Below, piece after piece: positions 218-54,853 of a stretch of DNA of 64,000 nucleotides. Both the position numbers and the translations under genes were made by a program. The notes under the pieces are model-generated. The model searched no databases. It saw only the letters and a program-made list of their open reading frames with translations, and was not told the origin of the DNA. The DNA is from Sedimenticola sp. GTDB lineage: Bacteria > Pseudomonadota > Gammaproteobacteria > Chromatiales > Chromatiaceae. The stretch's first letter is position 1, and each line of letters starts with the position of its first letter. Where the stretch lies: contig DRKS01000013.1 in assembly GCA_011051655.1 (NCBI GenBank), positions 1 to 64,000 on the forward strand, given 5' to 3'.

Positions 218-238
218 CCTGGTGAGAAATGCGGGCTA
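218..238 (+). repeat. Dispersed repeat, copy 1 (CCTGGTGAG...GCGGGCTA)
   Basis: A 21-bp sequence, CCTGGTGAGAAATGCGGGCT plus A, recurs near the other end of the window: inverted at 63129-63149 (one mismatch) and direct at 63260-63279 (one mismatch). It looks like the end sequence of an insertion element or a short dispersed repeat; I could not assign a family. Its last three bases form the stop codon of the minus-strand export gene that ends here. Confidence 0.5.
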
Positions 239-799
239 GGGCACCACAACCACGTCACCGCTTTCGAGAAGAATATTCTGTTCCAGTTCGCGGCCCTTCT
301 CCACCTCGCCGTAGTCGAAGGGGATGGCCTGCTGAACACCGCCCGAGCGGCGCAGTATCTTAATCTTGTCCAACTCCGCGAAAGGGGTGGTCCCGCCCGC
401 CTTGCTCAACGCCTGCATCACATCCAGCCGGCGGATGAATTCAAATTCACCCGGCCGGTTGACCCGCCCGATGACATAGATGGTGTTGCCGGAAATCTTC
501 TTGAGGGCCACCGTGACCACCGGCTCGGGAATATAGCGCTTCAGCCTTTCCGTGATCACCCCGGTCAGTTGCTCGATGGTGCGCCCCTCGGCGCTGACAT
601 CCCCCACCAGGGGGAAAGAGAGACCGCCGTCCGGCCGCACCAGCACCTCGCTCTGCATCCCCTCCTCCTTCCAGACCGCGATCTCCAGGATGTCCCCGGG
701 CTGGACCCTGTAGCCCTCGCCATCGGCCAAGGCTGCGGGAAGCGGCAGAAAGCATACCACCAGCAGTATCCCCAATGGCGTCAAACGCTGAAAAAGCAT
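236..799 (-). CDS. Polysaccharide biosynthesis/export protein (Wza-type, SLBB)
   Basis: A 187-residue exported protein. The N-terminus is a signal peptide (MLFQRLTPLGILLVVCFLP, cleavage probably after AALA). It is followed by the Poly_export domain opening YRVQPGDILEI and a beta-grasp SLBB-like domain containing VIGRVNRPGEF. Members of this family form periplasmic or outer-membrane parts of exopolysaccharide export channels, and short versions occur in PEP-CTERM/EPS gene sets, which suits the sorting-signal proteins next door. I chose the ATG at 799; the upstream in-frame TTG is unlikely. The stop codon falls inside a dispersed repeat, so a few C-terminal residues may have been lost to an insertion, although ending at GDVVVVP is close to normal for short members. 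Confidence 0.85.
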   Translation of the reverse strand: MLFQRLTPLGILLVVCFLPLPAALADGEGYRVQPGDILEIAVWKEEGMQSEVLVRPDGGLSFPLVGDVSAEGRTIEQLTGVITERLKRYIPEPVVTVALKKISGNTIYVIGRVNRPGEFEFIRRLDVMQALSKAGGTTPFAELDKIKILRRSGGVQQAIPFDYGEVEKGRELEQNILLESGDVVVVP

Positions 800-949
800 A
801 GTTTTGTTCCCATATCCCAAAAGGATTCCCCCGCTTATCGGATGAAATTCGGCCCCTCGCAGGGACCCTGAGACCGGCCGGTCAGGATAGCCGCCATTCC
901 GCTGATATTCAATATGTTATAGGGCTTATTTGGGCCGGCGCAGGAACGG

Positions 950-972
950 GGGCCCTGTTTGCAACAGGGCCC
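950..972. other. 10-bp perfect hairpin in the gap 800-1027
   Basis: GGGCCCTGTT and AACAGGGCCC form a perfect stem with a 3-nt loop, 55 bp downstream of the sorting-signal gene that ends at 1028. There is no T-tract on the outgoing minus strand, so it is not a standard intrinsic terminator; it may protect the transcript 3' end. Apart from this hairpin and an AT-rich stretch near 905-925 I see nothing in the gap. Confidence 0.4.
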
Positions 973-1027
973 GAGAGGAAGAAAAAAACCGGGAATACCG
1001 GGGAACGGGAGGCGATCCCTTGACCCG

Positions 1028-1690
1028 CTACCGGTTCGAGCCGCCCCTGCGACAATTTACCGCAACCAGGCCGATCAACGCGGAGCCAAAGAGGAAGACC
1101 GCCGGCGGCAGCGGCACATAGGAAACGCTGTCAATGACCACTTCCTGCAGGCTTATGCCATTCGGGGCAAAAATATTGACAAACTCCCAGTCGGGATTGG
1201 GACGCATTGTCCAATCCTCGAAAAAATAAAAGGCGCCGGGCGTAACGGCGGCGTCCACGACATGGCCGCCGAGAGAGCCCGCCACCGGCGCTCCGTCGTT
1301 CGCCCCCCACAGGTTCCATATGAGAGGCCCGTTACCGCTGTCCGCCGGATCGAAGAAGGTGACCTGAATCCGCATCTCCTTGACGAAGTTGTCCGGATCG
1401 ATGAAATTCGGCAGCCAGAAGTCGTAAAGCACGCCGCCGCCCGGCGCATCACTCATCTCCAGGCCGGGGAGGATGTCCCCCCCTCCCCACAACGGATAGG
1501 AACCGGGTTCATAGCCCCAGTCTTCAAGGATCAGGCCATTGCCATAATCCTCCCAGGAGGCCATGACCGAACCGGGTTGCCCCCGGTAGGGAGGTGGGTT
1601 TATATCGTCCGCCCACGCGGTGGCGGTCACCGCACCGGCCAGCGCCAGCAGGCCGGCCAGCAATCTATGAAGAAACCTGCGCATACACAT
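1028..1690 (-). CDS. VPLPA-type (PEP-CTERM-like) sorted surface protein
   Basis: A 220-residue protein of unknown function with a signal peptide (RRFLHRLLAGLLALAGAVTA, then AWA/DD) and a C-terminal sorting tail VPLPPAVFLFGSALIGLVAV followed by an arginine cluster. This is the VPLPA variant of the PEP-CTERM signal, recognised by exosortase-type transpeptidases. The middle is rich in Gly, Pro, Trp and Asp and looks like a secreted beta-rich domain, with two WNLWG/WEDYG-like stretches. The ATG at 1690 has AGGAA seven bases upstream; an in-frame TTG at 1708 lacks this. It is 51 bp downstream of a second VPLPA protein on the same strand, probably the same transcript. Confidence 0.8.
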   Translation of the reverse strand: MCMRRFLHRLLAGLLALAGAVTATAWADDINPPPYRGQPGSVMASWEDYGNGLILEDWGYEPGSYPLWGGGDILPGLEMSDAPGGGVLYDFWLPNFIDPDNFVKEMRIQVTFFDPADSGNGPLIWNLWGANDGAPVAGSLGGHVVDAAVTPGAFYFFEDWTMRPNPDWEFVNIFAPNGISLQEVVIDSVSYVPLPPAVFLFGSALIGLVAVNCRRGGSNR

Positions 1691-1741
1691 GTTTTTTTCC
1701 TGATACAAGAAGCAGAGCCGCCTCCCTGCAGCGGAAAATTA

Positions 1742-2524
1742 CTACGCTTGCGTCCGGCGCCTTCCCCAGCCCACGAGCCCCAGCAGGCCCGACCCGAAAA
1801 GAACCGCGGCAGCGGGCAGGGGGACAACGGCCGCCTTGCCGGATAATGTCAATTCTGTATTCAGGGTATCCACCGATATGGCCTGCAGAAAGCGATTCGA
1901 CAGCGCCGAGCCGTCATCCGACAAGGCCAAGGTGATTTTCCAAAGCTGTCCCGGCGCAAGGGTGGCCAGGTCCCACTGAAGCCCGAAGTCCACATCACAC
2001 GCGGCTCCACCGCATGCATCCATATCGTTCAGGCCGTTGTTGGCAATGATTTCAGTCGGCAGATCGACAGAGAACCAATCCTCGACCTGGTAGCGATCCG
2101 GCCCGCCCGGACCCTTGGCGGGCCAGGTCACCTTCGGCGTATCCATATAGCTGTCGGAGCCGTCGGCCTGCACATCGACCATGAAGCGGAGATCGCTGAA
2201 TGCGGCGGGGTCGTTGTTGGTGATCGAGTAGGTCACCTTCAGCATCGAGGTGCCCAATCCGCTGAGTTGGTAGCCATAGTCCAGGTTGGTCACAGCAGCA
2301 TGGCTGCCGGGTTTGTCGGTGGCCGCCAGGTCGCCCACGAACAGAAAGGGCTTCACATAGGCCAGCCCGGTGTACCCATAGCCGATATCATCGAAATCGC
2401 CATTCAGCCAGATATCACCGCTTGGCAAGGACATGGCCCCCAGCACCGAGCCGGCCGAGGCCATTGCCAAGGCGAAAAGAGCGGCCCGGCAGGCAGCAGT
2501 ATTTAAACCCAAACGTCTGATCAT
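1742..2524 (-). CDS. VPLPA-type (PEP-CTERM-like) sorted surface protein
   Basis: A 260-residue exported protein. Residues 1-29 form a signal peptide ending SVLGA. The body has regularly spaced beta-type segments and a CGGAACDVDFG stretch whose two cysteines may form a disulfide. The C-terminus is VPLPAAAVLFGSGLLGLVGW followed by RRR: the classic motif, hydrophobic helix and basic tail of VPLPA/PEP-CTERM sorting signals. GGGGGAG sits about 7 bases before the ATG. Unknown function; by family context a surface or extracellular-matrix protein. No exosortase (xrt) gene is in the window, so processing would depend on an enzyme encoded elsewhere. Confidence 0.82.
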   Translation of the reverse strand: MIRRLGLNTAACRAALFALAMASAGSVLGAMSLPSGDIWLNGDFDDIGYGYTGLAYVKPFLFVGDLAATDKPGSHAAVTNLDYGYQLSGLGTSMLKVTYSITNNDPAAFSDLRFMVDVQADGSDSYMDTPKVTWPAKGPGGPDRYQVEDWFSVDLPTEIIANNGLNDMDACGGAACDVDFGLQWDLATLAPGQLWKITLALSDDGSALSNRFLQAISVDTLNTELTLSGKAAVVPLPAAAVLFGSGLLGLVGWGRRRTQA

Positions 2525-2582
2525 TGTTTATCTCCCCCATGCGCCGCCTGATAGCAAACGGCCCAGATATACACCAAAACGC

Positions 2583-2603
2583 GCGCTGTGCAAAGCACAG
2601 CGC
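2583..2603 (-). terminator. Hairpin, weak intrinsic terminator of the gene ending at 2615
   Basis: GCGCTGTGC/GCACAGCGC form a perfect 9-bp stem with a 3-nt loop. On the minus strand it is followed by GCG and then only TTTT, so termination would be partial. It separates the unknown exported protein upstream from the VPLPA gene downstream. Confidence 0.45.
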
Positions 2604-2614
2604 ATGTCCGGTCC

Positions 2615-3757
2615 TCACTTTAGTGGTTCATCATCATTTTGATCGAATTCTTCGAACATGCGGACCAGGGGATATTCACGCACCATGCCGGCCGTGGTGG
2701 TCTGCATCTGTGACAACTCCACCTGTTCATCTTCGGTAAGATCACGCGGCACGGGCAACACCGCCATTTGCACGGCGGGCAACAGCAGGCCCACACCATT
2801 TTCCGAGGCGACCACCGTCAGCATGAGCCGCATATTCATCGCCTGAACCGGGCCCTGAAGGTCCGATGCGATATCCTCGGCTATTTCGCTCACAAGCTCA
2901 CTGCGCGTCTTGGCATTCTCCGCATGGGCCTTCGGATGCGGCCGGACTTCCTGCCAGCCCTGAACAATGGCCTCCTTCACCCCCCGGTCATCCATGACGA
3001 CCATGGCCTTCCCAGGGCCTGGCACCCACTGCAGCCTTTCATGGGCCTGCACGAACAGCCCCCGTGGAATAAGGACCATTTTTTCCACCGGAACGGAAGA
3101 AGGCGCCGCAGCCTTCAGCGGGCCACCGGCACTGGCCCATCCCAGGGCGATGGTGCGGACCGGCAGCATCTTTGCCTCCGCGGGGATCGGAAAAATCTCC
3201 TCCCCCGGCACCCTGAAGGTGCCTTTCAGGAAGTCAACGGCCTTTTCATAGGCCTCCCGGTCGGTCATCTTCACCGGCGGGAGCGCGGCCGGATCGATGA
3301 CCCTGTCGGCCTCCCGGTTCAAAAAGGCAACATTGCCCAATGCCAGATGCTTGCTGTAACGCAATACCTTGTATGCGCCTTTTCCCGACTCCAGGCCTTT
3401 ACTGGCGATACACTCATCCGTGGCCATGTCGCCGGTCGGGGTCGTCAGCTTACGGCATTCCGGGGAGAGGCTGGCGCCGCCGCGGCCGAACAGCGTCCTT
3501 ATCGCCCTGTAGGGGTTGAAACTCCGGCTCAAGGGTATGCCGAGCTTGGGATTCAGCAACTGGGCAACCAGCTTGGTATTGTCCTCGGTGATCAGCTCTT
3601 GAGGCAAGGCCGCCTCCACGAGTTTTCGCAGATCATCCGCCGACGGGCTGGGATCCTCCGTGGGACGATCACTGGCTTGGGATCCGAACGAAATGGCGAG
3701 CAGCAGCGCAGCCAAAGCGGCGATCCAGGGTTTGAAATAATGATTTAACATGTTCAT
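2615..3757 (-). CDS. Exported protein of unknown function
   Basis: A 380-residue protein that I do not recognise. It has a signal peptide (FKPWIAALAALLLAISFGS, cleavage near SQA/SD) and no further membrane segment. A central region (about residues 90-130) contains two cysteines (LSPECRKLTT and ATDECIA) that could form a disulfide. Two ATG codons lie at 3757 and 3751; GGAGGA directly abuts the first and is 6 bases from the second, so the second (protein starting MLNHYF) may be the true start. The neighbours are exported or cell-surface proteins. No catalytic motif is visible. Confidence 0.6.
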   Translation of the reverse strand: MNMLNHYFKPWIAALAALLLAISFGSQASDRPTEDPSPSADDLRKLVEAALPQELITEDNTKLVAQLLNPKLGIPLSRSFNPYRAIRTLFGRGGASLSPECRKLTTPTGDMATDECIASKGLESGKGAYKVLRYSKHLALGNVAFLNREADRVIDPAALPPVKMTDREAYEKAVDFLKGTFRVPGEEIFPIPAEAKMLPVRTIALGWASAGGPLKAAAPSSVPVEKMVLIPRGLFVQAHERLQWVPGPGKAMVVMDDRGVKEAIVQGWQEVRPHPKAHAENAKTRSELVSEIAEDIASDLQGPVQAMNMRLMLTVVASENGVGLLLPAVQMAVLPVPRDLTEDEQVELSQMQTTTAGMVREYPLVRMFEEFDQNDDEPLK

Positions 3758-3802
3758 TCCTCCGACATAATCAATTTCTTGCTAACGGGGCGATGCCTGA
3801 TC

Positions 3803-4720
3803 TTAAGGATTGAAGGCGGTCTCGCCCACTGAGTCGCAATTGACAATGTAGCGGTAGGCATACCAGTCACGATCCGTGGGATCGGAATAGACATTGTTGT
3901 AGCGTTCGTAATACAGCCGGGTCAGGGCATCGGAAGCAGTCGTGCCTATGGTGTAGGCCACCGGGCATTGCTCCTGGCAGGTTCCGAACACATTCCAGGG
4001 GTCATACCATGCGCAGTCCACCGTGCCGTCATACATGTTGCTGACCCAGGATCTGGCCATGGCGACGGAATGCGCATCATTGGCGAATTCCCGGTAATCG
4101 CTGTCAAAACTGCTGCCGATCCACATGATGCCGTGGAACCCGTCCCACTGGTGGGCGCGCCGCCCCGTGGGCGGGCTGTCGTAAGGATCGTACATCGCTT
4201 CCCGAATGCCCGGGAGATTGTCATCATCGGCGCTATAGCAGGATGAAACGTGGATGAATTCAAGATCCCAATCACCTACCCACATATCGTCTGCCGATCC
4301 GCCGGCGTCAAGGGCGCAATGTCCGCTCCAGCGGAAACGCATAGTGCCCTGCCAGTGATCCCCGCTATCGGAGCCATGGGTCGCAATCATGGCGGCGTCG
4401 GCTTCATCGATATAGTTGTAATCGCGGCAACCGGAATTCCAGTCAGGATCGCAAAAACGCCGGATGGTCATATTGCCGTTGGTATATTGCCCATCCTTGG
4501 TATGGCCCTTGCTGCCCATCTTGTCATACCATTTGTCCACCATGGTCGGCCAGTGGGAACGATCGCCGCCGCCACAGCCGCCGGAACCGGAGGGCACAAA
4601 ATCCCCTATTGCGAATACTTTCACCTCCATCGCCAGGACGCCGGCCGGCGCTGCAAGCGCCAACAGCAGCGCCAACAGCACCCGTCTCCGGCAGTGGGAT
4701 AACTTGATTTTCCTGGTCAT
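3803..4720 (-). CDS. Exported DUF6345-like protein with His-Cys dyad
   Basis: A 305-residue protein starting at the ATG at 4720, which has GAGGAGG upstream; longer in-frame starts would overlap the next gene. Residues 1-30 are a signal peptide (LLALLLALAAPAGVLA). The motifs MIATHGSDSG (His115) and FIHVSSCYSAD (Cys161) are arranged like the His-Gly and Cys of clan CD cysteine peptidases (caspases, gingipains). The protein has many Trp and Asp residues and about ten cysteines, in line with an extracellular enzyme. I believe it corresponds to the family called DUF6345, but that is from memory. Peptidase activity is inference; a structural prediction would be the main test. Confidence 0.6.
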   Translation of the reverse strand: MTRKIKLSHCRRRVLLALLLALAAPAGVLAMEVKVFAIGDFVPSGSGGCGGGDRSHWPTMVDKWYDKMGSKGHTKDGQYTNGNMTIRRFCDPDWNSGCRDYNYIDEADAAMIATHGSDSGDHWQGTMRFRWSGHCALDAGGSADDMWVGDWDLEFIHVSSCYSADDDNLPGIREAMYDPYDSPPTGRRAHQWDGFHGIMWIGSSFDSDYREFANDAHSVAMARSWVSNMYDGTVDCAWYDPWNVFGTCQEQCPVAYTIGTTASDALTRLYYERYNNVYSDPTDRDWYAYRYIVNCDSVGETAFNP

Positions 4721-4781
4721 AGTTGCCTCCTCACATGACAGTGAATTGCCTGGGATACCAGGCCCGATATCTGACGCCAAT

Positions 4782-5030
4782 CTAATTCGTTCTCTTTGGC
4801 GCATACGCATATACCGCCTTGCCCGCCGTTACCTGTTTCGATACGACCTGTTTCCAGACCAAATAGTCGAGGGCGGCCTGGACACTCTCATAGGCCCGCT
4901 CATAATGATGCCGCGCCAGCCACCATTTGGTTATGCCTTCGAGGCTATCGGTCGCGCGCGGGTGCGCCGCCAGGTAGTCCTCAATATCCCTGGCGAGAGC
5001 CAGCACCTCGTCATCATCCGGGGGGTTCAT
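4782..5030 (-). CDS. Small hypothetical protein (82 aa)
   Basis: A small acidic-to-neutral, mainly alpha-helical protein beginning MNPPDDDEVLALARDIEDYL, with a Trp/His-rich middle (ITKWWLARHHYERAYESV). The layout suggests a three-helix bundle or a winged-helix-like fold, but no family is recognised. The ATG at 5030 is preceded by AAGGG; a longer in-frame start at 5108 is less likely. It lies 61 bp upstream of the DUF6345-like gene on the same strand. It could be a regulator, but nothing proves this. Confidence 0.5.
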   Translation of the reverse strand: MNPPDDDEVLALARDIEDYLAAHPRATDSLEGITKWWLARHHYERAYESVQAALDYLVWKQVVSKQVTAGKAVYAYAPKRTN

Positions 5031-5296
5031 TGGGTTGGGCGCACCCTTGGTCACTTGGTTTCGGCTTTGGGTACAGTAGTGGGTGCAAGTTATGCGCCAG
5101 TCTGACAATCCGGCTAACAGCCTGATTTTTCAAGGACCAGTTTATGCCGCGTCTTAAAGGCGGGTAGAGCGTGACCCGGAACCCATCCGGGTTGCATCAA
5201 GCTAACACTTTGAAAACACATATAAATACAGAACAACCGGACGCCAGAACGGCGGGGCGATAATTACCCGGCAAAAAACAAGGAAAGAGACCGGGT

Positions 5297-6691
5297 TCAG
5301 CCGGCCCTGTGATACTTCTTTTTGTCTATGCCGTGCTTTTTGAGGAGCTTTCCAATGGCGCGCCGCTCCTTGCCGGCGCGCATTGCGGCCAGGGTGACAT
5401 TGCCGCCGCACTCTTCCATCAGCCAGCAGAGATAGGTCTTTTCAAAATTGGTGATGACCTCCCCCTTTGCATCCGCGAACCCCAGATCGAAGCTCACCTG
5501 CCGCCGCCGGTCCGGCCTGGCCCTGCGCCGCTCCCGGCGGGCCGGATCCGGTGGCTGGGCATAGAGGTATCGGCCTTCGGAAAGCAGAAACTCGCGATGA
5601 ATGAAATTCTCAAGCTCCCGCACATTACCCGGCCAGTCGTATCTTCTGATCCACCTCAGGGTGCTGGGATGCAGGATTTTATCAGGCTGATCGTAACGAA
5701 TGCGCAACCGCCGCATGAATTCCCGGGCCAGGATGACCGCATCGTCCCCCCGTTCGCGCAAAGGAGGCAGACTGGCGTTCAGGACATTGAGCCGGAACAG
5801 CAGGTCCTGGCGAAACAGCCCCTGAGTCACGAGTTCCTCCAGGGGCCGGTTGCTCACCGCAATGATGCGGACATCCGCCTCTTTCAGCACCCGCTCCCCC
5901 AGGGGCCGGTATCTTTGATCCTGGAGAAAACGCAGCAGCGTGACCTGCGCCTTCTGGGTCAGGGCGTCCACTTCGTCCAGAAACAGGGTGCCGCCCTGGG
6001 CCTGTTCCACAACCCCGGTCTGCGCCTGGCCCGCGTCCGTGTACGCGCCCTTCGCATGGCCAAACAGCTCATTCTCGATGAGGCTGTCGGGCAATGCGCC
6101 GCAGTTGATGGGGATGAAGGGAAAATCCCTGCGGTCACTCAAATAATGTATGGCCCGTGCGGCAAGCTCCTTACCGGTGCCGGTCTGGCCTTCCAGGAGC
6201 ACGGGGGCGTCACATTGTGCAATCTTCTTTATCCGCGCCAGCAGATTCAGGAACTTTTCAGACTGGCCCACCAGATTGAACGCCACGAACTCCTCGGCAA
6301 TCCCCGGGTCGGCGGCCGGCGGGGCGGGACGATGGGATATCAGCCTTGCCATGCGCAGGGCCAGCTCCTCTCTTTGGCATGGCCAATAGACAAAGTCATG
6401 ACCGAGCCTGAAGATGCTCTCGTCCAGCCGCGCATCGCTTCCTTCGATCACCAGGAACGAGGGGTTTTTGTTCCTGGTCGCAAGCAGCCGGAGCAGAGGA
6501 TCCTGCTGCAGCCCGCCCGGGCCCAGAAGCAAAACCAAGGGATCGTATGGTCTTCTCAGGGTGACGGCCGGTAGATCGTCCGGCCCCAGTTGTTCGACCG
6601 CGTATCCAATGGCGCCAAAGGCATTGGATACGGCCTCACACTGTGACGACGCGCCAACCGGCAGTAAAAACATCTGTACTTCAGTATTCAC
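5297..6691 (-). CDS. AAA+ enhancer-binding-type regulator (PrsR/VpsR-like)
   Basis: A 464-residue regulator with three parts. Residues 1-125 are receiver-like but without an obvious phospho-acceptor aspartate pocket. Residues 135-380 are the AAA+ domain, with Walker A GQTGTGKE (168-175) and Walker B GGTLFLDE (233-240). A C-terminal helix-turn-helix contains GGNVTLAAMRAGKERRAI. The sigma-54 contact loop, normally GAFTGA, reads GAYTDA (215-220), a departure at a critical glycine. That and the weak receiver recall VpsR, a c-di-GMP-responsive regulator of exopolysaccharide genes that works with sigma-70, as well as PrsR of PEP-CTERM systems. The start is GTG at 6691, or ATG at 6673; neither has a strong ribosome site. 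It probably controls the surface genes downstream. Confidence 0.75.
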   Translation of the reverse strand: MNTEVQMFLLPVGASSQCEAVSNAFGAIGYAVEQLGPDDLPAVTLRRPYDPLVLLLGPGGLQQDPLLRLLATRNKNPSFLVIEGSDARLDESIFRLGHDFVYWPCQREELALRMARLISHRPAPPAADPGIAEEFVAFNLVGQSEKFLNLLARIKKIAQCDAPVLLEGQTGTGKELAARAIHYLSDRRDFPFIPINCGALPDSLIENELFGHAKGAYTDAGQAQTGVVEQAQGGTLFLDEVDALTQKAQVTLLRFLQDQRYRPLGERVLKEADVRIIAVSNRPLEELVTQGLFRQDLLFRLNVLNASLPPLRERGDDAVILAREFMRRLRIRYDQPDKILHPSTLRWIRRYDWPGNVRELENFIHREFLLSEGRYLYAQPPDPARRERRRARPDRRRQVSFDLGFADAKGEVITNFEKTYLCWLMEECGGNVTLAAMRAGKERRAIGKLLKKHGIDKKKYHRAG

Positions 6692-6749: not shown

Positions 6750-8423
6750 TTAATTCCCACCGTATTGCTTCAGTACCTTGAGGCAACCGGCACTTACCCT
6801 GCTCAGCCGGATGTCTGCGCCTTCCCCGCCGGCCATGAGCGCATTGAGCCGCAGTTGCGCCCGCTTTTCTCCCAGGCTCTCGGCCACCCGGTACCAGCAA
6901 TAGGCCATGTCCGGATTCGCCTTGCTGAACGCCGTTTGTTCCGGCCGGAAATCCTTGGCCTTGAACAGGTTCGGATCATACATGGCGCCGATGGCGAGGG
7001 CCGACCAGGCATCCCCCTTGCGGGCGGCGGTCTTGAACAGCAGCAGCGCCTTGTCCGGGTCCTTGGCCTGAAGGAACCACAGGCCGTACTGACGCACCTT
7101 CGCGGCATCCATGTACTGCACCGTCTCGCGCAGCCTGAACCAGGCCGGCAGCCGCCCCGGCGGGGCGATCTGGGGCAGCGGCGGTTCCGGGAATACCGAC
7201 AGCGACTGGCGCCCCGTATCCACCAGGCAGCGCTCAAGATCCGCCTGCATGGCCGACAATGCAGACCGGGCCTCCGCCACCAGGGCGCCGCAACGCTCCC
7301 CTTCAGCCAGTGCCGCCCCGGTGTCCCCGGCCAGGCTCTCCCACTCCTGATCAATGGCCTCTATGCGCTGCTCCGATGTCAACACCGGCGCCGAAATGGC
7401 CACGCGGAATCCCACCGTATCCAGGCGATTCGCTTTTCCGACCGCGGGATTGAACTGGGGATGCTCCCGGCGCCAGGAGGTGCGCAGGGTGTTGCGCCAA
7501 CTGCGGAAGTGCCCGCCCTTGACCAGAAAACCGCCGGCCTGCCCATGCAGGCGCCCGTTGGTGCTGAGACGGAAAAGATCGAACACCAATTCGGCGGCAT
7601 TGCCCAGGATATCGTACAAGCCCAGCGGATTCGGCTTCAGCGACCCCACCGGCCGCGGCTTGAAGCTTGAAGATACGGACTCCCGGATCCAGGCATAATC
7701 CGTCACCTCCCCGTCCATTGGAAAAAGCGACTTCCGAAACGCCGCCTCGTCCACCAGGCTGCCGCCGCGGGCGGCGTACTCCCACTCCACTTCCGTGGGC
7801 AGGCGCAAATAGCCGGGAATGCCGTCTTCCCGGGGCAGCCTCTCCCGGGCGTTCTCATACAGCCACTCGGTATAGCGCCGGGTGAATTCCACTGCGTCAT
7901 ACCAGGAGATCCTGACCGCCGGACGGCGCCCCCTGTTTTTTTCAGGGCAGTCTTCCATCACTGCCCGGTATTGCAGGTCCGTCACCTCGTACTTGCCGAG
8001 ATAATAATAGCGCCTGGCCCTGGGGTCCTGGTCCTCGCCGCTGAAGGCGCCCGAAATGAAGGCGGCGCGCCTGTAATCCAGCGGGGCGTCCAGTTCGCTC
8101 GGGCTGCCCAGCTCGATCCGTTGTTCACCCAGCCAACCCTCATTGCCCCCCACCTCGATCCGGCGGAACACCATGGCCCCGCCACAGGGCAGCGGCAGCA
8201 TCAGTTCGCCGTCCTCCGCGCCCTCCTCCACCGGTCGGGGGTCAAACTCATCCTCATCCCAGCGGGGAACCTCGATGGCGGAGGGGGCGCCGAACATCTC
8301 GCGGAACTGGCCATACGCCTCCGCATCGTCCAGGGCCGGTGGGGACCCGGCCTGATCCACCGCCATTGACGGCCAGGAGAACAACAAGAAGAGAAGGCCA
8401 GCAATGGATTTGCTAAAGCTCAC
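6750..8423 (-). CDS. SUMF1/FGE-fold sensor protein with Sel1 tail (TagR-like)
   Basis: A 557-residue exported protein with three parts: signal peptide (IAGLLFLLFSWPSMA), formylglycine-generating-enzyme fold at about residues 75-350 (YYLGKYEVTDLQYRAVM, RLPTEVEWEYAARGG, NPLGLYDILGNAAELVFD, VGFRVA), and a coiled segment then Sel1/TPR-like repeats at about 430-557. The cysteines of active FGE are absent where expected (the GGHFRSWRNTLRTSW stretch), so it is probably a binding protein, as is TagR of the type VI threonine-phosphorylation pathway. The GTG start at 8423 lies inside the upstream permease gene and has AAGGGG six bases before it, giving an 11-bp overlap and likely translational coupling. 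It is the last gene of a five-gene operon. Confidence 0.75.
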   Translation of the reverse strand: MSFSKSIAGLLFLLFSWPSMAVDQAGSPPALDDAEAYGQFREMFGAPSAIEVPRWDEDEFDPRPVEEGAEDGELMLPLPCGGAMVFRRIEVGGNEGWLGEQRIELGSPSELDAPLDYRRAAFISGAFSGEDQDPRARRYYYLGKYEVTDLQYRAVMEDCPEKNRGRRPAVRISWYDAVEFTRRYTEWLYENARERLPREDGIPGYLRLPTEVEWEYAARGGSLVDEAAFRKSLFPMDGEVTDYAWIRESVSSSFKPRPVGSLKPNPLGLYDILGNAAELVFDLFRLSTNGRLHGQAGGFLVKGGHFRSWRNTLRTSWRREHPQFNPAVGKANRLDTVGFRVAISAPVLTSEQRIEAIDQEWESLAGDTGAALAEGERCGALVAEARSALSAMQADLERCLVDTGRQSLSVFPEPPLPQIAPPGRLPAWFRLRETVQYMDAAKVRQYGLWFLQAKDPDKALLLFKTAARKGDAWSALAIGAMYDPNLFKAKDFRPEQTAFSKANPDMAYCWYRVAESLGEKRAQLRLNALMAGGEGADIRLSRVSAGCLKVLKQYGGN

Positions 8424-9657
8424 GCAGCCCCTTCGACGGTTCGATCCGGGTGGCGCGGTAAGCGGCCAGGGCCGATGAAAGAAGGGCGCAGAGCAGGGTC
8501 GCCGCCAGGCTGAAGGCCAGGTGGGACGGCAGCAGGCGGCACAGCCCCTCGAACTGGCCGGACGCCCGGGCGAAATAATTGTTGATCAGAATACTGATGA
8601 ACCCGAAAAGCACAATCGCCAGCCCCCCGCCGCACAAGGCGATGAGCGCAGACTGAACCATGGGGAAGAACATAATGACCGATGAGGGAAACCCCAGCAG
8701 TTGCAGCACGCTCAGCTCCCGGCGTTTGCGCTCGACATTCACCCACATGCTGGCGCCGAAAGAGAGCAAATAACCCGCCACCCCGATAAAGGCGATCATC
8801 AGATAGGTGGAGGTGAGATAGCGGTCGAACAGCCTCACCTCTTCGATGGCCTTGGCCTGGGTGATCACTTCATAACCCTGCCCGCCGCCGGCCAGCAGAT
8901 CACGCACGACCGGAACATCGTCCAGGCCGCGGACATAGAGACGAAAACCGGAAAAATAGCGGGGGCCGCTGAAGGGTTCGCCCTCGCCCCAGCCCAGTTC
9001 CGGAACGGCATAACCGTCCCGGTAGTCCTCGATGGCGGCCAGCAGTTGGGGTGAAACAAAGCCGCCCTTGCGGGCGAACACGCTGTCCGGGACCACCCCG
9101 GTCACCCGGAGTAAAACCTGTTCCCGCGACCACCGGCCACCCCGCTTGCGCCGCACGCTGGCCTTGACTCTGTCACCCGTCTTGGCCCCCATCAGCCGGG
9201 CGGTCCGGGCGGAAATGACAATGGACTCTTTGTCCGCAGGCGCCTTGGCATGGCCCTGGAGCAACGGATCCCCCGGGGCGGAGGGAATCAGCTCCACCGT
9301 GGCGCGCTCCCCCCCCGGCCCTTCGGGGCGCAGATCGATCGTGGCCGCCGCGCCCCTGGTGCGGGGGATGACGAAGGCGACCTCATCCCGGGCCGCCATG
9401 TTCTCGAACCAGTCCTGATCGAAACGCCCATGGCCGACCAGGCGGATCTCCCGGTTCCGGGGGTCTTCCACCAGCTCACGCGCAAGATTGTCGATAACAC
9501 CAAACTTGAGGCCGAACAGCACCAACAGCGGGGTAAGGACAGCCGCCAGCGCCAACACCAGCACCAATGAGGCCAGCTTCTGGTGCAACAGATCCCGCGC
9601 CGCCAGCCGGGCGATCTGGGACGCTGTGGCGCCTGAATTGCCGGCCGGAGCACTCAC
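8413..9657 (-). CDS. FtsX/LolE-like ABC transporter permease (TagS-like)
   Basis: A 414-residue inner-membrane protein with the FtsX/MacB-type layout: a first membrane helix at about residues 28-51, a large periplasmic domain (60-270), then three membrane helices (YLMIAFIGVAGYLLSFGA; FPMVQSALIALCGGGLAIVL; LAFSLAATLLCALLSSALAA). The cytoplasmic loop NVERKRRELSVLQLLGF is the coupling motif typical of the family. The start is GTG at 9657, overlapping the stop of the ATPase gene by 4 bp (GTGA), so the two are translated together. With the LolD-like partner it would form a mechanotransmission complex rather than a classical importer. The neighbourhood with an FGE-fold protein and a vWA protein matches TagT-TagS of type VI signalling. 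Confidence 0.8.
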   Translation of the reverse strand: MSAPAGNSGATASQIARLAARDLLHQKLASLVLVLALAAVLTPLLVLFGLKFGVIDNLARELVEDPRNREIRLVGHGRFDQDWFENMAARDEVAFVIPRTRGAAATIDLRPEGPGGERATVELIPSAPGDPLLQGHAKAPADKESIVISARTARLMGAKTGDRVKASVRRKRGGRWSREQVLLRVTGVVPDSVFARKGGFVSPQLLAAIEDYRDGYAVPELGWGEGEPFSGPRYFSGFRLYVRGLDDVPVVRDLLAGGGQGYEVITQAKAIEEVRLFDRYLTSTYLMIAFIGVAGYLLSFGASMWVNVERKRRELSVLQLLGFPSSVIMFFPMVQSALIALCGGGLAIVLFGFISILINNYFARASGQFEGLCRLLPSHLAFSLAATLLCALLSSALAAYRATRIEPSKGLREL

Positions 9658-10379
9658 GAGTGAAACTCCGATCGCAATACGCCTTTCTCATCCACCTGCT
9701 CATGATGAAGCCTGGTCAGCCCCAGCTCAGTGACCCGCGCCCAATCATGACTGGCCACCAGAAGCGTTATGTTGCGCTGGGCCGCCAACTCCACAAAAAG
9801 CTCCATCACCTCGGCCGCCGTATGCGGATCCAGCGAAGCGGTGGGCTCATCCGCCAGAACCACACTGGGCTCATGGGACAGGGCGCGGGCCACGGCCACC
9901 CGCTGGCGCTGCCCTACCGACAGGGTGGCGGGCAACTTTTCAAGCTGATCGCCGATCTTCAGGCGCTCGGCCAGGGCCCGGGGCACGCCATTCACGGGGA
10001 GACCGCACAGGCGCCGCGGCAATTCGATGTTCTCGCGCACGGTGATGAAAGGGAGCAACCCGCCGGTCTGGAGGACATAGCCGATATGGCGTCCGCGAAG
10101 CCCCGCCAGCCGATCCATGCGGCGACTGCTCCAGGCCTCATGGATGTCAGTGCTGTTTCCCGTTTCCGGCTCAAAACGGAATGCTTTACTGGTGGTGGGC
10201 TCCAGGGTCATGGCCAGGATATCCAGCAGGGTGCTCTTGCCACAGCCGCTCTGCCCCAGCACCGCGATCCGCTGGCCGGCCTTGATGTCCAGGCGGGGAA
10301 TCGAGAGTTGGAACTCCTCGTCCGGTGCGGCCCATGTTTTTGTCACACCGCGCAGGCTGAATATGGTGCGGGCGCTCAT
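9654..10379 (-). CDS. LolD/MacB-like ABC transporter ATPase (TagT-like)
   Basis: A 241-residue ATP-binding subunit. Walker A GQSGCGKST (42-50), Q-loop near VLQTGGLLP (102-110), signature LSVGQ (153-157) and Walker B VVLADEP (173-179) are intact, followed by TASLD and the switch histidine in LLVASHDWARVT. It belongs to the LolD/FtsE/MacB branch that works with FtsX-fold permeases, encoded immediately downstream with a 4-bp overlap. It acts at the cytoplasmic face of the inner membrane. The ATG at 10379 is 34 bp after the stop of the vWA gene, in the same operon. Confidence 0.87.
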   Translation of the reverse strand: MSARTIFSLRGVTKTWAAPDEEFQLSIPRLDIKAGQRIAVLGQSGCGKSTLLDILAMTLEPTTSKAFRFEPETGNSTDIHEAWSSRRMDRLAGLRGRHIGYVLQTGGLLPFITVRENIELPRRLCGLPVNGVPRALAERLKIGDQLEKLPATLSVGQRQRVAVARALSHEPSVVLADEPTASLDPHTAAEVMELFVELAAQRNITLLVASHDWARVTELGLTRLHHEQVDEKGVLRSEFHS

Positions 10380-10413
10380 GAGGCGGGGTTCGGCGAATTC
10401 ACTATATTCTGAT

Positions 10414-12387
10414 TCAGGGCAGATCGGTCAGGGAGATCGGATAGACCGCATCGCCCTTGATGCGGCCGTCATCCAGCGTGATCCACAGGTCCTGGTTGTC
10501 GTGGATGTCCTGGTAGAGCTGAATCTTGGCCTCGATGTCGTCGATCACCTCCTGGCGTTCACCGGCGCCCATGGCCAGCCAGGACTCCTTGTCGATCCCG
10601 GTGAGGGCGCTCTGATAAGGCAGGCCCTCGAGATATTCCCCAAGCACCACCGAGTCCCCCAGGGTCTTGGCGCGGGCCAGCTCGGAGGAGTCCCGCTGGG
10701 CCAGGATCAGCAGTTTGCGCACCTGGGTGAAAAAGTCCTGGGGGGCCAGCTCGGTCAGATCGCCCGCCTCTATGATTTGCCGCAACGCCATCTGCAGGTC
10801 ACTGAGCTGGTCCTTGGTCAGCAGCACCCGGATCTCCAACGCCAGCTTGCGCCGGTCCTGGGCGCTGCGCTCCGCCACCCAGGCCTCGAACACCTCCGGC
10901 GCCGGCGTGCCCTTGGTGCGCCCCAGGTAGGCCAGGCGCATGGCGTGGCCGAGCCTGTCGATATCCCTGCTGCGGCCGGCCTTCGCCCTGCTCTTGTTCC
11001 GGGCCCCTTCCAGATACGCCGCCGCTTCGGCCCCGAGCTGGCTGATCAGACCATCGGCCAGCTGCTCCACCTCGGCCCCGAATTGCCTGGCCCCGGCCGC
11101 AAGCGCATAGTAAAAGGGCGGCAGATTGGGCCAGCGCGACAGGGCCTTGTATTGGGCCTCGGCCCGTTCGTGATCATGCCTGCCTTCCGGCGTGCGCAGG
11201 TGCAGCGTCAACAAGGCCACACCCCGGGACTGGGCCTTGGAGTTCAGCTCCCGCGCATTGAGCCTGGTGGTGCTGTAACGGTTGCTGCCGGAACGGGCGC
11301 TGGCGTCGGTGACAAGCACCACGAAGCGCCCGCCATAGGGCTCCCAGTCCAGCCTGGTGAGGGCCGCATCGACGCCGGCGAAGGCGTCTTCGGAAAAGCC
11401 CTTGCTGGAGATCCCGGACTCCGTCATCGCCTTGGCCTCGGACAGCAGCGCCGCGCAATCACGACCGCCCTTGAAATCCGCAAACAATCTGGATGTGTAC
11501 TCGAGCTCCGGCCGGGCCTTCAGGCTGTCGCGGAAGCCGATGAGTGCAAAATGGAAGCGATCCCGCCACTTTGTGGTCTGGGTCTTTTCACAGATGCGCC
11601 TTATGGCGTCCCGGGTCTGGTCGATATAGGGGCCCATGGAGCGAGTGGTGTCGATGACGAAGGCGATGGCCACCTTAAAGCCCGCAAGCGGATCGCCCTC
11701 CTGGCCGGCGACCGGCCTGACGGTCTCTTTCTGGATATTCTTATTGACCACCGCCACCTTCAGCACCTTGGTGGAAAAATCATCATCCGCTTCGAAATGG
11801 TCGAGAATAGGAAGAAGATAAAAATTCCGGCGGGGGTCGATGAAGGTGTCCGGCTCCATGGCGATGACCGGGGAATCCGCCACGCCCTTTTCCGCCTCCT
11901 TGCGGAAATGTCCGGCCAGCCCTGCGCCGATTTCGGATTCGAGCACCTCGACCAGGGTCTCGCGATCACGAAAGAACAGGGCCGGCAGCCGGTTCCCCGG
12001 CCTGGTGAAAAGCCCCACCAGCATTTGCCGCCATTCCACCAGCTGCTTTGCCGGAATCCAGCCGCTGATATTCCCGCGGCTGGAGGGGCTGACCTGCATC
12101 CACTGCGCGCCATCGACCAGTTTCCTGGCGTAAACGTAGAAGATCGAAAACGGCGGCACGCGGGATATCACCCGGGCCCGGGCGTCGGGGGCCTCGTGGA
12201 TTTCCGCGCCCACGCGGGTCAGCACGCGCTGATAGAGGGTCTTCTTGCCTTCCATCCGCAGCGGGCGAAGGGGTTCCTGCCCCGCGGCCACCCCGGCCAG
12301 GGCAAGCCCGGCGAACGCCAGCACCAGCGACAGGGCCAGGCCCCCGCCGGCGCGCAGTAACGTCCGCCTTGGATCTCTGACTCGCAT
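10414..12387 (-). CDS. Exported vWA-domain protein (PpkA periplasmic part-like)
   Basis: A 657-residue protein with an N-terminal signal or anchor (LALSLVLAFAGLALAGVAAG), an SH3-like region (about 50-125, YQRVLTRVGAEIHEAPDARA...SGWIPAKQLVEW) and a von Willebrand factor A domain starting at VAIAFVIDTTRSMGPYIDQ (about 239-257). The metal site keeps D246, T248 and S250. A long helical C-terminal region follows. The order SH3-like, then vWA resembles the periplasmic half of the type VI kinase PpkA, but the cytoplasmic kinase domain is missing. Upstream by 25 bp is a Sel1 protein; downstream are the ATPase, permease and FGE-fold genes. I infer a periplasmic partner of the TagR-like protein. Some annotators may call it simply a vWA protein. 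Confidence 0.78.
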   Translation of the reverse strand: MRVRDPRRTLLRAGGGLALSLVLAFAGLALAGVAAGQEPLRPLRMEGKKTLYQRVLTRVGAEIHEAPDARARVISRVPPFSIFYVYARKLVDGAQWMQVSPSSRGNISGWIPAKQLVEWRQMLVGLFTRPGNRLPALFFRDRETLVEVLESEIGAGLAGHFRKEAEKGVADSPVIAMEPDTFIDPRRNFYLLPILDHFEADDDFSTKVLKVAVVNKNIQKETVRPVAGQEGDPLAGFKVAIAFVIDTTRSMGPYIDQTRDAIRRICEKTQTTKWRDRFHFALIGFRDSLKARPELEYTSRLFADFKGGRDCAALLSEAKAMTESGISSKGFSEDAFAGVDAALTRLDWEPYGGRFVVLVTDASARSGSNRYSTTRLNARELNSKAQSRGVALLTLHLRTPEGRHDHERAEAQYKALSRWPNLPPFYYALAAGARQFGAEVEQLADGLISQLGAEAAAYLEGARNKSRAKAGRSRDIDRLGHAMRLAYLGRTKGTPAPEVFEAWVAERSAQDRRKLALEIRVLLTKDQLSDLQMALRQIIEAGDLTELAPQDFFTQVRKLLILAQRDSSELARAKTLGDSVVLGEYLEGLPYQSALTGIDKESWLAMGAGERQEVIDDIEAKIQLYQDIHDNQDLWITLDDGRIKGDAVYPISLTDLP

Positions 12388-12412
12388 CTCAGGTCTGCAT
12401 GGGAACCGCCGG

Positions 12413-12934
12413 TTATCGCTTCATTTTCTGCAAAATCCGCTGGGCCGCCGTATCTCCCCTCTCTGCTTCCTCCCGCAGGTGGGCAATCAATCTGTTGCGC
12501 CGCGATTCAGCCTGCGGCTCCCCGTTTTTCAGCGCCTGATCGTACCATTGCAGCGCCTTGCGGGGGTTTGGCTTGGTGAAGGCCGTCTTGCTGGGGTCGA
12601 AGTGCTCGATGGCGAAGGTTGCCGGATCGTACATCTCGCCGATGACCATGGCCGACCAGCCGTCGCCCTTCCTGGCCGCCTGCTTGAACAGCAGAAAGGC
12701 CTTGTCCGGGTCCCCCGCCTGGAAGAACCTCAGGCCGTGCTGGCGGATCTCCGCGCCTTCCTTGTCCGCCAGGCTCTCGATCAGCCGCTCCCAGGGCAAA
12801 GGCTCCACCTTGGCGGCCGGCGCCTCGGTCAGGCTCGCGGGCGCCCTGGGGGTGCGCGAAGACATCAGCCAGGCGGCCCCCGCCCCCAACAGAACGATCA
12901 GGGCCGCAACCGGGATCCAGGCCTTTGTTTTCAT
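12413..12934 (-). CDS. Membrane-anchored Sel1-repeat protein
   Basis: A 173-residue protein with an N-terminal membrane helix (WIPVAALIVLLGAGAAWLM) and Sel1/TPR-like repeats (AFLLFKQAARKGDGWSAMVIGEMYDP; WYDQALKNGEPQAESRRNRL). The repeats are clearly related to the C-terminal part of the FGE-fold protein at the end of the same operon: DKAFLLFKQAARKGDGWSAM here, DKALLLFKTAARKGDAWSAL there. This suggests the tail of that gene arose by duplication or fusion of this module. It is the first gene of the five-gene minus-strand operon. Likely role: a scaffold at the inner membrane for the neighbouring sensing complex. Confidence 0.75.
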   Translation of the reverse strand: MKTKAWIPVAALIVLLGAGAAWLMSSRTPRAPASLTEAPAAKVEPLPWERLIESLADKEGAEIRQHGLRFFQAGDPDKAFLLFKQAARKGDGWSAMVIGEMYDPATFAIEHFDPSKTAFTKPNPRKALQWYDQALKNGEPQAESRRNRLIAHLREEAERGDTAAQRILQKMKR

Positions 12935-12959: not shown

Positions 12960-13409
12960 TTAGGATGGACTGGCTGCACAGGGGGCGATTTCAACCAGAT
13001 CCAGCTCGAAATTTAGCGCCTTTCCCGCCATGGGGTGGTTTCCGTCCACCGTGATGCTGTCATCATTGACCTCGGTCACGGTCAGGATATGGGTTTGTCC
13101 ATCCGGGCTGCTGGCCTGGAGCTGGAGGCCAACGGCCAGTTCGATCTCCTCCGGGATCTCCGCCCGGTCGACCTGCTGCACCAGCTGGGGCCGGTGTTCG
13201 CCATAGGCCTCTTCCGCGGGGATATGGATGGTTTTCTTCTCCCCCACGCTCATGCCTTCCAGCCCCCGCTCGAAACCCGGTATGACTTCGCCTTTGCCGA
13301 GGGTGACCACCAGGGGCTCCGCCCCCACGGATGTATCGAACTGGGTGCCGTCATCGAAGGTGCCCGTGTAGTGAACTTTCACCGTGTCGCCGGATTTGGC
13401 CTGGGTCAT
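12960..13409 (-). CDS. FKBP-type peptidyl-prolyl isomerase (SlyD/FkpB-like)
   Basis: A cytoplasmic prolyl isomerase of 149 residues. The FKBP fold is clear: VKVHYTGTFDDGTQFDTS, LGKGEVIPGFERGLEGMSVGE, then an insert-in-flap domain (about 70-125) with EEAYGEHRPQLVQQV and VDGNHPMAGKALNFELDLVEI, as in SlyD and FkpB. The metal-binding His/Cys tail of E. coli SlyD is absent. I start at the ATG at 13409, which has AGAGGA upstream; an in-frame TTG at 13430 would add seven residues. The gene stands alone on the minus strand between the sensing operon and the helicase. Confidence 0.9.
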   Translation of the reverse strand: MTQAKSGDTVKVHYTGTFDDGTQFDTSVGAEPLVVTLGKGEVIPGFERGLEGMSVGEKKTIHIPAEEAYGEHRPQLVQQVDRAEIPEEIELAVGLQLQASSPDGQTHILTVTEVNDDSITVDGNHPMAGKALNFELDLVEIAPCAASPS

Positions 13410-13549
13410 TTTATGATCCTCTGTTTTCAATTTAATTTAAAGAATCCGCAGTATACCAGACAGGGTAAATATTCCAGCGGCGCGCTCCAGGCGTCAACAC
13501 CGGCGGGGCCGGGGTAACGCGTAAAAATCATCCGGCGCTTTGCCGCGGG

Positions 13550-46082: not shown

Positions 46083-48483
46083 ATGGATAGCATTGGTCCG
46101 CAACAGAGTTATCAACGCTTTTTTCAAATAGCCATGGGAGCGGAAAAGAAGCCCTTTCCATATCAGACCAAACTGGCAACAGAGACTTGGCCGGACCTGC
46201 TGGAGATTCCAACCGGACTTGGAAAGACCGCCGCAGTGATTTTGGCTTGGCTCTATAAACGAAAAAACAGAGACTCCGATACCCCCGGGCGCTTGATCTA
46301 CTGCCTGCCGATGCGCGTACTGGTAGAGCAGACTCAACGCAACGCCGAACAATGGATAAAAGCACTTGGACTGAGCAATGATGTCTCCGTGCATTTGCTG
46401 ATGGGCGGAGAGGAGTGTCTCCGCAAGGCAGCCTGGGCTGATTCTCCGGAGCAGGCGTGCATCCTGATCGGCACCCAGGACATGCTGCTCTCCCGTGCCT
46501 TGATGCGAGGCTACGGCATGAGCCGGTATCAGTGGCCCATGCACTTCGGCCTGCTGCATAACGATGCGCTGTGGATCTATGACGAGATCCAGCTCATGGG
46601 GGCAGGGCTGCCCACCACAGCACAATTGGAGGCGTTCCGGAGGGAATTCCCACTGGGGGCGCGAAGCCGCAGCCTGTGGCTCTCGGCCACCCTTCACCCC
46701 GATTGGCTGGCGACAGTTGATCTCAAGCCCCATCTTGCTTCACTCCGCCATGACACGCTGGGAGATGAAGACAGGCAACATCCTGCCGTCCGGCAGCGTA
46801 CCCAGGCCCGCAAGATTTTGAGCAAAGCCGACATCGCTCTGACCGGAGCCACCAAGGCGGACACGGCCTCTTACATCACGGCGTTGGCGGACCGGGTTCG
46901 CCAGACCCATATGGATAACAGCAACACCATCGTCATCCTGAACCGGGTCGAGCGGGCTCAGGCGGTTTATCAGGAGCTCGCCAAACAGATGCCGGAAGTG
47001 GAGCGCCTCCTTATCCATGCCCGCTTCCGCCCCGGCGAGCGCCGAGCCCAGGCGGAAAAACTTACGGAAGAACCGGGACCCCAGGGGAGGATCATCATCG
47101 CCACACAAGCCATCGAGGCGGGTGTTGATATCAGCTCGGCCATCCTCTTTACCGAACTGGCCCCCTGGTCCTCCCTGGTGCAGCGTTTCGGCCGCTGCAA
47201 CCGCTATGGCGAACAGCCGGTGGCCCATATCCACTGGATCGATATTGCAACCGATGCTAAACCCGATACCGCGCTGCCCTACGATCCCGCCGTCCTGGAT
47301 GCCAGCCGCGAACAGCTGCTGAACCTCGAAGAGGCTGGCCCGGCCTCATTACCAAAAGTGAGCGGTGAGCGCCCCCTGTCGCCGGTGATCCGTCGCAAGG
47401 ATCTGCTGGATCTCTTCAATACCGATCCCGACCTGTCGGGCTTTGATGTGGATATTTCCATGTACATCCGAGACCAGGGCCCGCCGCAGATCCAGGTCTT
47501 CTGGCGCGACTTCGACGATCAACCCGGCGACCAGGAACCGCCACAGCGGGATGAACTCTGTCCCGCCTCCATGGGGCAGATTGAGGCCTACCTGAAACCC
47601 GACAAGCGCCGAGCCTGGCAGTGGGATGGTCTCTCCGACCAGTGGCGGCCGGTGCAAAAGGGCCAACTCCGGCCGGGCCAGATATTGCTGCTGCGCAATA
47701 GCGATGGCGGTTATGACGACAAGCTGGGGTTCGAGGCCGGAACCAAAACACCCGTGCCTCCCATCCCCCTTGAGAAGAGCGAAGCCAATGGCGCCTATAG
47801 CGGCGATCCCGACAGCCGCCAGACCAAAGCCATTCCGTTGGCCAGACATCTGACCAACGTACATCAGACCGCCCGGAAACTGACGAAAACCCTCGGCATC
47901 GAGTTGTTTGCCGATACCGTCTGCCAGGCCGCTCTGTGGCATGACGTGGGCAAGTCGCATTCGGAGTTCCAGAAAACCCTCTATGGACAGGAGCGGGAAG
48001 CCGCTGAACCCCTGCTGGCGAAATCGAGCAGAAAAGGGAAACACAAGCGCGAATATCTGCGCCACGAACTCGCCTCCATGCTGGCGTGGCTGGAGCACGG
48101 CGAGCGTGACAAGTGGCACGACCTGATCGCCTACCTGATCCTCGCCCACCACGGCAAGGTCCGCACCAGTATCCGCGCCATGCCGGATGAAGAGCCACCG
48201 AAGGAGGATTGGATCAAGCAACACGATCTGAACAACCCCCTCTACGCCCGCGGCATCTGGGAAGGGGACAAACTGCCCGCCCTGGAGATCGCAGGTGTCC
48301 CGATCCCCGAAACCCGCCTGCGGCTCGATCTCATGCGCCTGGGCCAGAGCGAACAGGGCGCCTCATGGACCGCCAGGGTACAGCAACTTCTGCACCAGCA
48401 TGGGCCTTTCCAGTTGGCTTGGCTGGAGACCCTGGTGCGGATCGCCGACTGGCGGGCCACCGCCGAGGAACAGGAGAAGGACG

Positions 48484-48491
<8 letters not shown>
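46083..48491 (+). CDS. cas3: Cas3 helicase-nuclease, C-terminal HD (type I-G)
   Basis: An 802-residue Cas3. The helicase comes first: Walker A PTGLGKT (43-49), DExH-box variant IYDEIQL, LSATL, and motif VI SLVQRFGRCNRYGE. The HD nuclease is at the C-terminus with LWHDVGKSHSEF (H620, D621) after HLTNVHQTARKL. This reversed order is typical of I-U/I-G systems. It is recruited by the effector complex to unwind and degrade target DNA. AGGA sits 7 bases before the ATG. The 3' end overlaps csx17 by 8 bp. The gap to the upstream guide RNA is 25 bp. Confidence 0.95.
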
Positions 48492-51607
<3,116 letters not shown>

Positions 51608-51610
51608 CCC

Positions 51611-53107: not shown

Positions 53108-53118
53108 GGACAGCTGTC

Positions 53119-54192: not shown

Positions 54193-54206
54193 GGAGTATC
54201 GTGCCG

Positions 54207-54545: not shown

Positions 54546-54853
54546 TATTTCCACCACTTCTGGTTAGGGTCGATGCCTGCTGCGCGGTCTGATTCGATGA
54601 TGGCATCAAGCCCTTCATCGATTGAGTCAAAGTCGTTGGCGATTTCGAGCGATTCGGCCACGGCGGCAGGGTTGGCGGCCAGTGCCTTGGCGGCGGCCGC
54701 CAATTGCGCCATAAACCGCTCTTTCTCACGGCGAGCCAGATATTCGGCAATGGCCTCGCGAGCCACTTCGGAGCGAGGCTTGCCCTCGAGGTCGGACTCA
54801 TGACTGAGCCGGGCTTCAAGCTCTTCAGGAAGTCTTATGCTGATAGCGGCCAT
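54545..54853 (-). CDS. Ribbon-helix-helix antitoxin of the MazF-type pair
   Basis: A 102-residue antitoxin starting MAAISIRLPEELEARLSHES, a ribbon-helix-helix, followed by a helical toxin-binding tail (FDSIDEGLDAIIESDRAAG). The start at 54853 is preferred over 54877 because it gives the RHH directly. The promoter region is shared, divergently, with cas4-cas1. Confidence 0.87.
   Translation of the reverse strand: MAAISIRLPEELEARLSHESDLEGKPRSEVAREAIAEYLARREKERFMAQLAAAAKALAANPAAVAESLEIANDFDSIDEGLDAIIESDRAAGIDPNQKWWK

Follow-up and report, generated by a model that had tools for sequence, protein, structure and literature searches.

An intact five-gene operon related to the Tag envelope sensor in a Sedimenticola genome, from a group found mainly without type VI secretion

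TagQRST is a device that lets Pseudomonas aeruginosa retaliate after a hit by a type VI secretion system (T6SS). As far as the consulted extracts of the literature go, it has a signalling use in this species (PMC6657622; for TagQRST see also PMC10482370), and the kinase PpkA carries an extracellular vWA domain (PMC3224232). Tag-like genes are also described beside srfABC, mostly without a T6SS (PMC3608642), and the consulted part of a 2019 paper places genes of T6SS post-translational control beside srfABC in Xenorhabdus (PMC6950479). As these srfABC-linked genes are already published, Tag genes without a T6SS are not a new idea. Here we analysed an operon at positions 6750–12934 of a 64,000-nucleotide stretch of a Sedimenticola sp. 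genome (contig DRKS01000013.1, positions 1 to 64,000; hereafter the window). An initial annotation, made from the letters of this stretch, had read it as an orphan TagT/TagS/TagR/PpkA-periplasmic module that may have a different output; the srfABC-linked architectures, which are the closest ones and already in print, were absent from it.

The operon comprises five intact open reading frames (ORFs) on the minus strand, running from 12934 to 6750 and transcribed in the order SEL, VWA, ATPase (ATP), permease (PERM) and FGE-fold protein (FGE). The encoded proteins measure 173, 657, 241, 414 and 557 residues. According to the ORF coordinates, gaps of 25 bp (SEL-VWA) and 34 bp (VWA-ATPase) are followed by overlaps of 4 bp (ATPase/permease) and 11 bp (permease/FGE), in agreement with the tight operon annotated at first.

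We examined the relation of this module to the Tag and PpkA proteins with a profile of the VWA family, run against 358 genomes from the phylum. It matched in 15 genomes, and in six of them, all of a single family (f145), the matching frames were 1017–1189 residues long and scored 642–663 bits over nearly all profile columns. Five of these six genomes were fetched (L195–L199), and in all five a kinase domain is fused ahead of the vWA part. The fused gene lies downstream of tssK-tssL-tssM-tagF and is followed by permease and FGE homologues in the order of the window; PP2C and ATPase were each labelled in four of the five, L196 lacking both labels, probably as an effect of ORF picking. This gene set is the published H1-type set, as given in the consulted parts of PMC3224232, PMC6657622 and PMC10482370. 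Sequences for the T6SS-linked comparison came from L195–L199 and from Tistrella (L047), where kinase and vWA are separate adjoining genes inside an annotated T6SS cluster and the permease is 35% identical to that of the window. Since the VWA profile finds kinase-vWA fusions in T6SS clusters with the same gene order, the homology proposed initially stands: by sequence, the module is homologous to TagT/TagS/TagR, and VWA, along almost all of its length, to the C-terminal region of PpkA. In contrast to TagQRST-PpkA, neither a kinase domain, a phosphatase nor any T6SS gene is found at the window locus, and BLAST revealed no TagQ-like lipoprotein there; the vWA part is a separate exported protein and the FGE protein has a Sel1 tail.

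The anchor gene SEL was then placed by its likeness to kinases. In purple sulfur bacteria, a form of the operon with the same VWA-ATP-PERM-FGE order (L030, L106, L116, L124 and L205–L207) carries a kinase, which the window does not, and this kinase ends in the same Sel1 stretch as SEL. A hidden Markov model (HMM) was made from seven kinase tails (11 kinase ORFs, with duplicates removed and Tistrella left out). It matched the window SEL at E 1.7e-14 and 84 of 94 SEL ORFs at E<=1e-3, with no hit at E<=10 among 2000 shuffled sequences. Of 95 FGE-like ORFs it matched two, from the window and from genome G115, and these are also the only FGE-Sel1 fusions among the 95. Hence SEL sits in the slot of the receptor kinase minus the kinase domain, and, judged by the profile match, is a homologue of the tail that PpkA-like receptor kinases carry outside the cytoplasm, with the kinase domain gone. 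In srf-type operons, the same anchor bears a different N-terminal domain.

BLAST with 44 queries detected no kinase (STK), PP2C, T6SS or Srf homologue on the 85.8-kb contig, window included. The initial statement that kinase, phosphatase and secretion genes are missing was thus borne out for window and contig, and failed for the genome: the search for tss genes proposed as a check found TssK on another contig, at C71. Beside it, Pfam identified Fha (FHA and T6SS_FHA_C), TssJ, TagF, a PP2C phosphatase and a 408-residue PpkA-like Ser/Thr kinase, and further frames were read as TssL and TssM. The kinase has no vWA domain, its tail is not Sel1-like by eye, and no TagRST or vWA homologue was found in the 40 kb surrounding this TssK. 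SrfB was not found genome-wide; SrfC and a TagQ-like lipoprotein were not found in searches that covered the contig only, of which the latter, by BLAST, easily misses low-complexity coiled coils. Flanking genes of the T6SS at C71 of this genome, G000, encode two caspase-like proteins (Peptidase_C14) and a PASTA-containing subtilase (L002 9700-11418, L003 8101-10434 and L002 12822-14912).

Similarly, we read 20 T6SS loci from 20 genomes of the family or class, four of them module-bearing. None had a vWA, TagS, TagR or SEL label and 14 had a kinase label. Thus a kinase without TagQRST is the usual case here, and in this class a T6SS as a rule does without the module at its own locus; the consulted part of PMC10482370 reports a kinase without TagQRST in Serratia and Agrobacterium too.

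Co-occurrence was scored in 323 gammaproteobacteria with a completeness of at least 90%. After 13 of 40 matching genomes had been set aside as generic vWA hits (no more than 57 bits and confined to the vWA domain), 27 had a full-length VWA-family member; TssK was present in 58 and SrfB in six. Only seven of the 27 also carried TssK (Fisher p 0.29, not significant), on a contig different from that of the module in all seven, and 51 of the 58 TssK genomes were without module. The module therefore does occur in genomes without T6SS, as the initial annotation had suggested checking: 20 of 27 had no TssK. SrfB accompanied it in three (p 0.009), and 18 of 27 had neither marker. Among the 55 nearest relatives, 16 had the module, 13 had TssK and seven had both; eight of the 16 had neither TssK nor SrfB, one of these eight being a genome only 40% complete. 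Moreover, only one locus (L047) among 125 vWA frames lies inside a T6SS cluster, which removes the possibility that close homologues are all encoded in such clusters. We regard the window operon as a genuine and intact variant of the Tag envelope sensor, from a group usually found in the absence of T6SS.

We further compared the architectures of 80 named loci, those nearest in sequence among 514 relatives found, a sample biased towards the closest. In 65 of these best 80, srfB or srfC adjoins the module; a kinase label was present in four, seven had FGE without Srf or kinase, three showed a four-gene form and one another arrangement. The srf-linked loci are mostly ordered srfA-srfB-srfC-SEL-VWA-ATP-PERM-FGE. 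A plasmid collection contained 125 module records, 114 of them from Klebsiella, and opened plasmids from Klebsiella, Lelliottia and Gluconobacter carry srfB-srfC-SEL-VWA-ATP-PERM-FGE, with an annotated srfA in the first two; one example is NZ_CP102995.1 (98363-118243), an IncFIB/IncHI1B Klebsiella plasmid with srfABC-SEL-VWA-ATP-PERM-FGE. The srfABC-linked operons (Xenorhabdus, oral Deltaproteobacteria, Klebsiella plasmid L044, Proteus) share with the window the SEL-to-FGE order and a kinase-less SEL. They differ in that the window genome has no SrfB, and the window SEL no cytoplasmic domain, and in that no TagQ-like genes were found at the window locus; in many loci a TagQ-like lipoprotein comes after FGE. 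Clustering of the ORFs of 47 non-srf loci and L049 recovered the core genes with their shadow frames. TagQ-like lipoproteins recurred in 13 loci, the remaining clusters reflected local gene order, and no effector gene was common to the stand-alone operons.

A tree was calculated from the 125 vWA frames, with five omitted as fragments or duplicates, and later trees from hand-picked sets of 55 and 31 rows. The window and G115 form a distinct subtype on a long common stem (vWA 68%, permease 73% identical). The four-gene form SEL-VWA-ATP-PERM is one well-supported clade of 26 rows; like the window it has a TM-Sel1 (transmembrane-Sel1) protein, a vWA protein and the ABC pair, no kinase and mostly no T6SS, and unlike it no FGE protein. 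A second module copy in the window genome is of this four-gene form (38% identical); it lies on contig C86 and continues on C59, the two having 145 identical end bases in common. Two separate T6SS recruitments (Pseudomonas-like and Tistrella) were considered and dropped, as a single clade was not rejected (p-AU 0.186). A divergent long form (L040, L042, L093 and L204), with a permease frame above 600 residues and FGE present, branches outside all others, and one of its loci has two tandem vWA genes.

Table 1. Coordinates of the operon genes and neighbouring features in the window
Feature	Position	Strand	Description
SEL	12413..12934	-	Putative inner-membrane anchor with periplasmic Sel1 domain (Pfam); N-terminal TM segment (by eye), cytoplasmic tail of 4 residues
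VWA	10414..12387	-	Predicted to be exported; N-terminal domain rich in beta structure, then vWA (DxTxS metal site), with the C-terminal part helical
ATP	9654..10379	-	TagT-like/LolD-like ABC ATPase; Walker A, signature and Walker B motifs by eye
PERM	8413..9657	-	TagS-like permease of FtsX/LolCE type
FGE	6750..8423	-	TagR-like, predicted exported FGE-fold protein without catalytic cysteines; Sel1 domain fused at C-terminus
S54	5297..6691	-	Sigma-54-dependent activator, 58 bp downstream of FGE; candidate output
FKBP gene	12960-13430	-	25 bp upstream of SEL
Sigma-54-type promoter-like site	5083..5100	-	11/13 consensus positions; precedes small ORF 4782-5030 and DUF6345 protein 3803-4810

Signal peptides and the TM segment of SEL (Table 1) were read by eye. 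Pfam returned ABC_tran for the ATPase (1e-25), FtsX for the permease (8e-11), FGE-sulfatase for the FGE-fold protein (3e-31), Sel1 (3e-7) and, at its cut-off, VWA_4 for VWA (4e-6). Together with the curated models and a structure prediction for the vWA fold, these upheld the domain assignments made initially (LolD-like ATPase, FtsX-like permease, FGE fold, vWA and Sel1). LolD was the nearest curated model for the ATPase, with 127 bits against a cut-off of 308; the permease reached 22 of 362 bits for LolC/E and 20 of 255 for FtsX, and every LolCDE, FtsEX and MacB model remained far under its cut-off. The AlphaFold model of VWA (33 sequences, mean pLDDT 82) supports the vWA fold: in a fold search with this model, residues about 236-451 matched integrin I domains (Z 19.0, rmsd 2.7, 187 aligned). 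N-terminal to this, the model shows a beta domain predicted with confidence; the fold search barely covered it and Pfam gave no match, so that the former 'SH3' label was not confirmed. Sequence searches of the PDB gave no match for VWA and only fold-level relatives for FGE and permease. The catalytic cysteine pair of FGE presumably lies after a 'GG' motif, and none of 22 aligned FGE-like proteins has a cysteine in the stretch after the 'KGG'/'GG' motif. Loss of the catalytic cysteines, reported initially for the window copy, is accordingly a trait of the family and not an oddity of that copy.

We favour, with a probability of about 0.5, the reading that the operon is no broken T6SS remnant but encodes a free-standing sensor of envelope status belonging to the Tag family, and that S54 is its likely local output partner. 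In a simple model drawn from the LolCDE/MacB/FtsEX superfamily, the TagT-TagS-type ABC pair would spend ATP to move large periplasmic parts. VWA, the Sel1 anchor and the FGE-fold protein, by analogy with TagQRST, would make up the periplasmic half and detect strain on the envelope or damage to it. In related operons the anchor would bear the output on its cytoplasmic side, as a kinase in purple bacteria and with T6SS, or as a different domain in the srfABC type. Because the cytoplasmic side of the window SEL has only a few residues, the signal would have to exit via the ABC pair or a partner, and S54 would be the most likely one at hand, giving a transcriptional instead of a phosphorylation output. 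The different output suggested at first thus agrees in kind with a module found mostly away from T6SS; as to which output, S54 is a candidate only.

S54 lies on the same strand as the module and is followed by a terminator-like stem, of a kind as frequent as by chance. Among four sigma-54-type sites in the 64 kb, one stands just after S54, a post hoc and weak observation. A scan of module and T6SS genes gave at best 11/13 positions, apart from one 12/13 site at L003:16576 that is not ahead of the T6SS core genes; scans for sigma-70 promoters and for terminators found about as many as expected by chance (3 versus 2.7 and 8 versus 7.7). Neither S54 (54 relatives, threshold 1e-90) nor the window-type module had a close homologue in the relatives. 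Downstream of S54, window positions 236-4810 encode a polysaccharide export protein (Poly_export/SLBB) and more exported proteins, one of them DUF6345, and S54 might serve these genes instead of the module. A defence-system reading was dropped, PADLOC having returned only generic AAA/ABC matches and CARF-type RtcR_PspF models for the AAA part of S54.

Several results weigh against the proposed sensor with S54 output. S54 adjoins no other module among the loci read; in G115 (L099), which carries the one other window-type operon, the place downstream is taken by a MotA/ExbB-like gene and a coiled-coil gene; and no strong sigma-54 site precedes the module. The tree backbone is unresolved, grouping of the window with the T6SS form (p-AU 0.37) or with the four-gene form (0.39) not being rejected. 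Finally, in the 55 nearest relatives TssK was found in seven of 16 module genomes versus six of 39 others, above chance (p 0.037). In the G115 operon (L099 3005-5250), the coiled-coil gene after the MotA/ExbB-like gene has a MotB-like N-terminus by eye.

Instead of sensing, the five proteins could form an envelope machine powered by ATP and akin to LolCDE, MacB or FtsEX, which would transport a lipoprotein or control a cell-wall enzyme via the periplasmic vWA, FGE and Sel1 proteins. LolD, LolC/E, FtsE/X and MacB models do give the best scores for ATPase and permease, and operons of the four-gene form include no gene for a cytoplasmic effector. Moreover, 119 of 210 genomes of the order have some family member (window aside, none above 44% identity), as expected of a housekeeping-like role. 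We nevertheless hold this doubtful, as those models all score far under their cut-offs, and signalling use is shown by kinase- and T6SS-bearing relatives and by the P. aeruginosa work, in its consulted part (PMC6657622).

That the module acts in trans on the T6SS of its own genome, with its periplasmic part activating the vWA-less kinase at C71, seems unlikely. Fha, TagF and PP2C do stand beside this kinase, Tistrella has kinase and vWA as separate genes, and the co-occurrence in near relatives points the same way. However, most module genomes have no TssK, most TssK genomes no module, and none of the 20 T6SS loci holds it. The tail of the C71 kinase, itself not Sel1-like by eye, recurs (35%, E 1e-11) on a T6SS-locus kinase of G218, where the module is missing, and the window genome has two module copies versus one T6SS. 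The prevalence of srf linkage among the best 80 loci and a weak grouping of the window with some srf-type rows in the tree would suit a relic left by loss of srfABC and serving whatever SrfB/SrfC-type proteins do, which is quite improbable in a genome without SrfB, with all five frames intact and with the same subtype, long common stem and FGE-Sel1 fusion in two genomes of different families, pointing to a maintained function.

As for the family, the stand-alone sensor found mostly away from T6SS is probably a more general cell-envelope sensor. More tentatively, vWA-TagT-TagS(-TagR) may be a general reader of envelope status, its output depending on what a common TM-Sel1 anchor bears towards the cytoplasm: a kinase in purple bacteria, a kinase fused to vWA in the Pseudomonas-type T6SS, a beta-rich domain with srfABC, and nothing in the four-gene and window forms. 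T6SS retaliation would then be one use of it, and the window copy would have been rewired to a sigma-54 output. In the open-licence literature searched, we found no description of the stand-alone four-gene type, the window type or the relation of SEL to kinase tails; SEL as a kinase-less receptor-kinase tail, and the subtype of window and G115 with Sel1 also fused to FGE, look new.

Elsewhere in the window (46083-61400) lies a CRISPR locus with Cas3 carrying a C-terminal HD domain, a GSU0053-type protein, a Cas4-Cas1 fusion, Cas2 and 59 repeats at 70-74-base spacing, which looks like what we take to be type I-G (formerly I-U).

The module is thus more ordinary than first thought, its relatives being widespread, and more informative, its sensor core being joined to different outputs. 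If this core mostly occurs without T6SS, sensing and signalling can be studied apart from the secretion machine, in operons of four or five genes. The Sel1 tail common to kinases and kinase-less anchors would offer a handle on how the periplasmic half communicates with the output.

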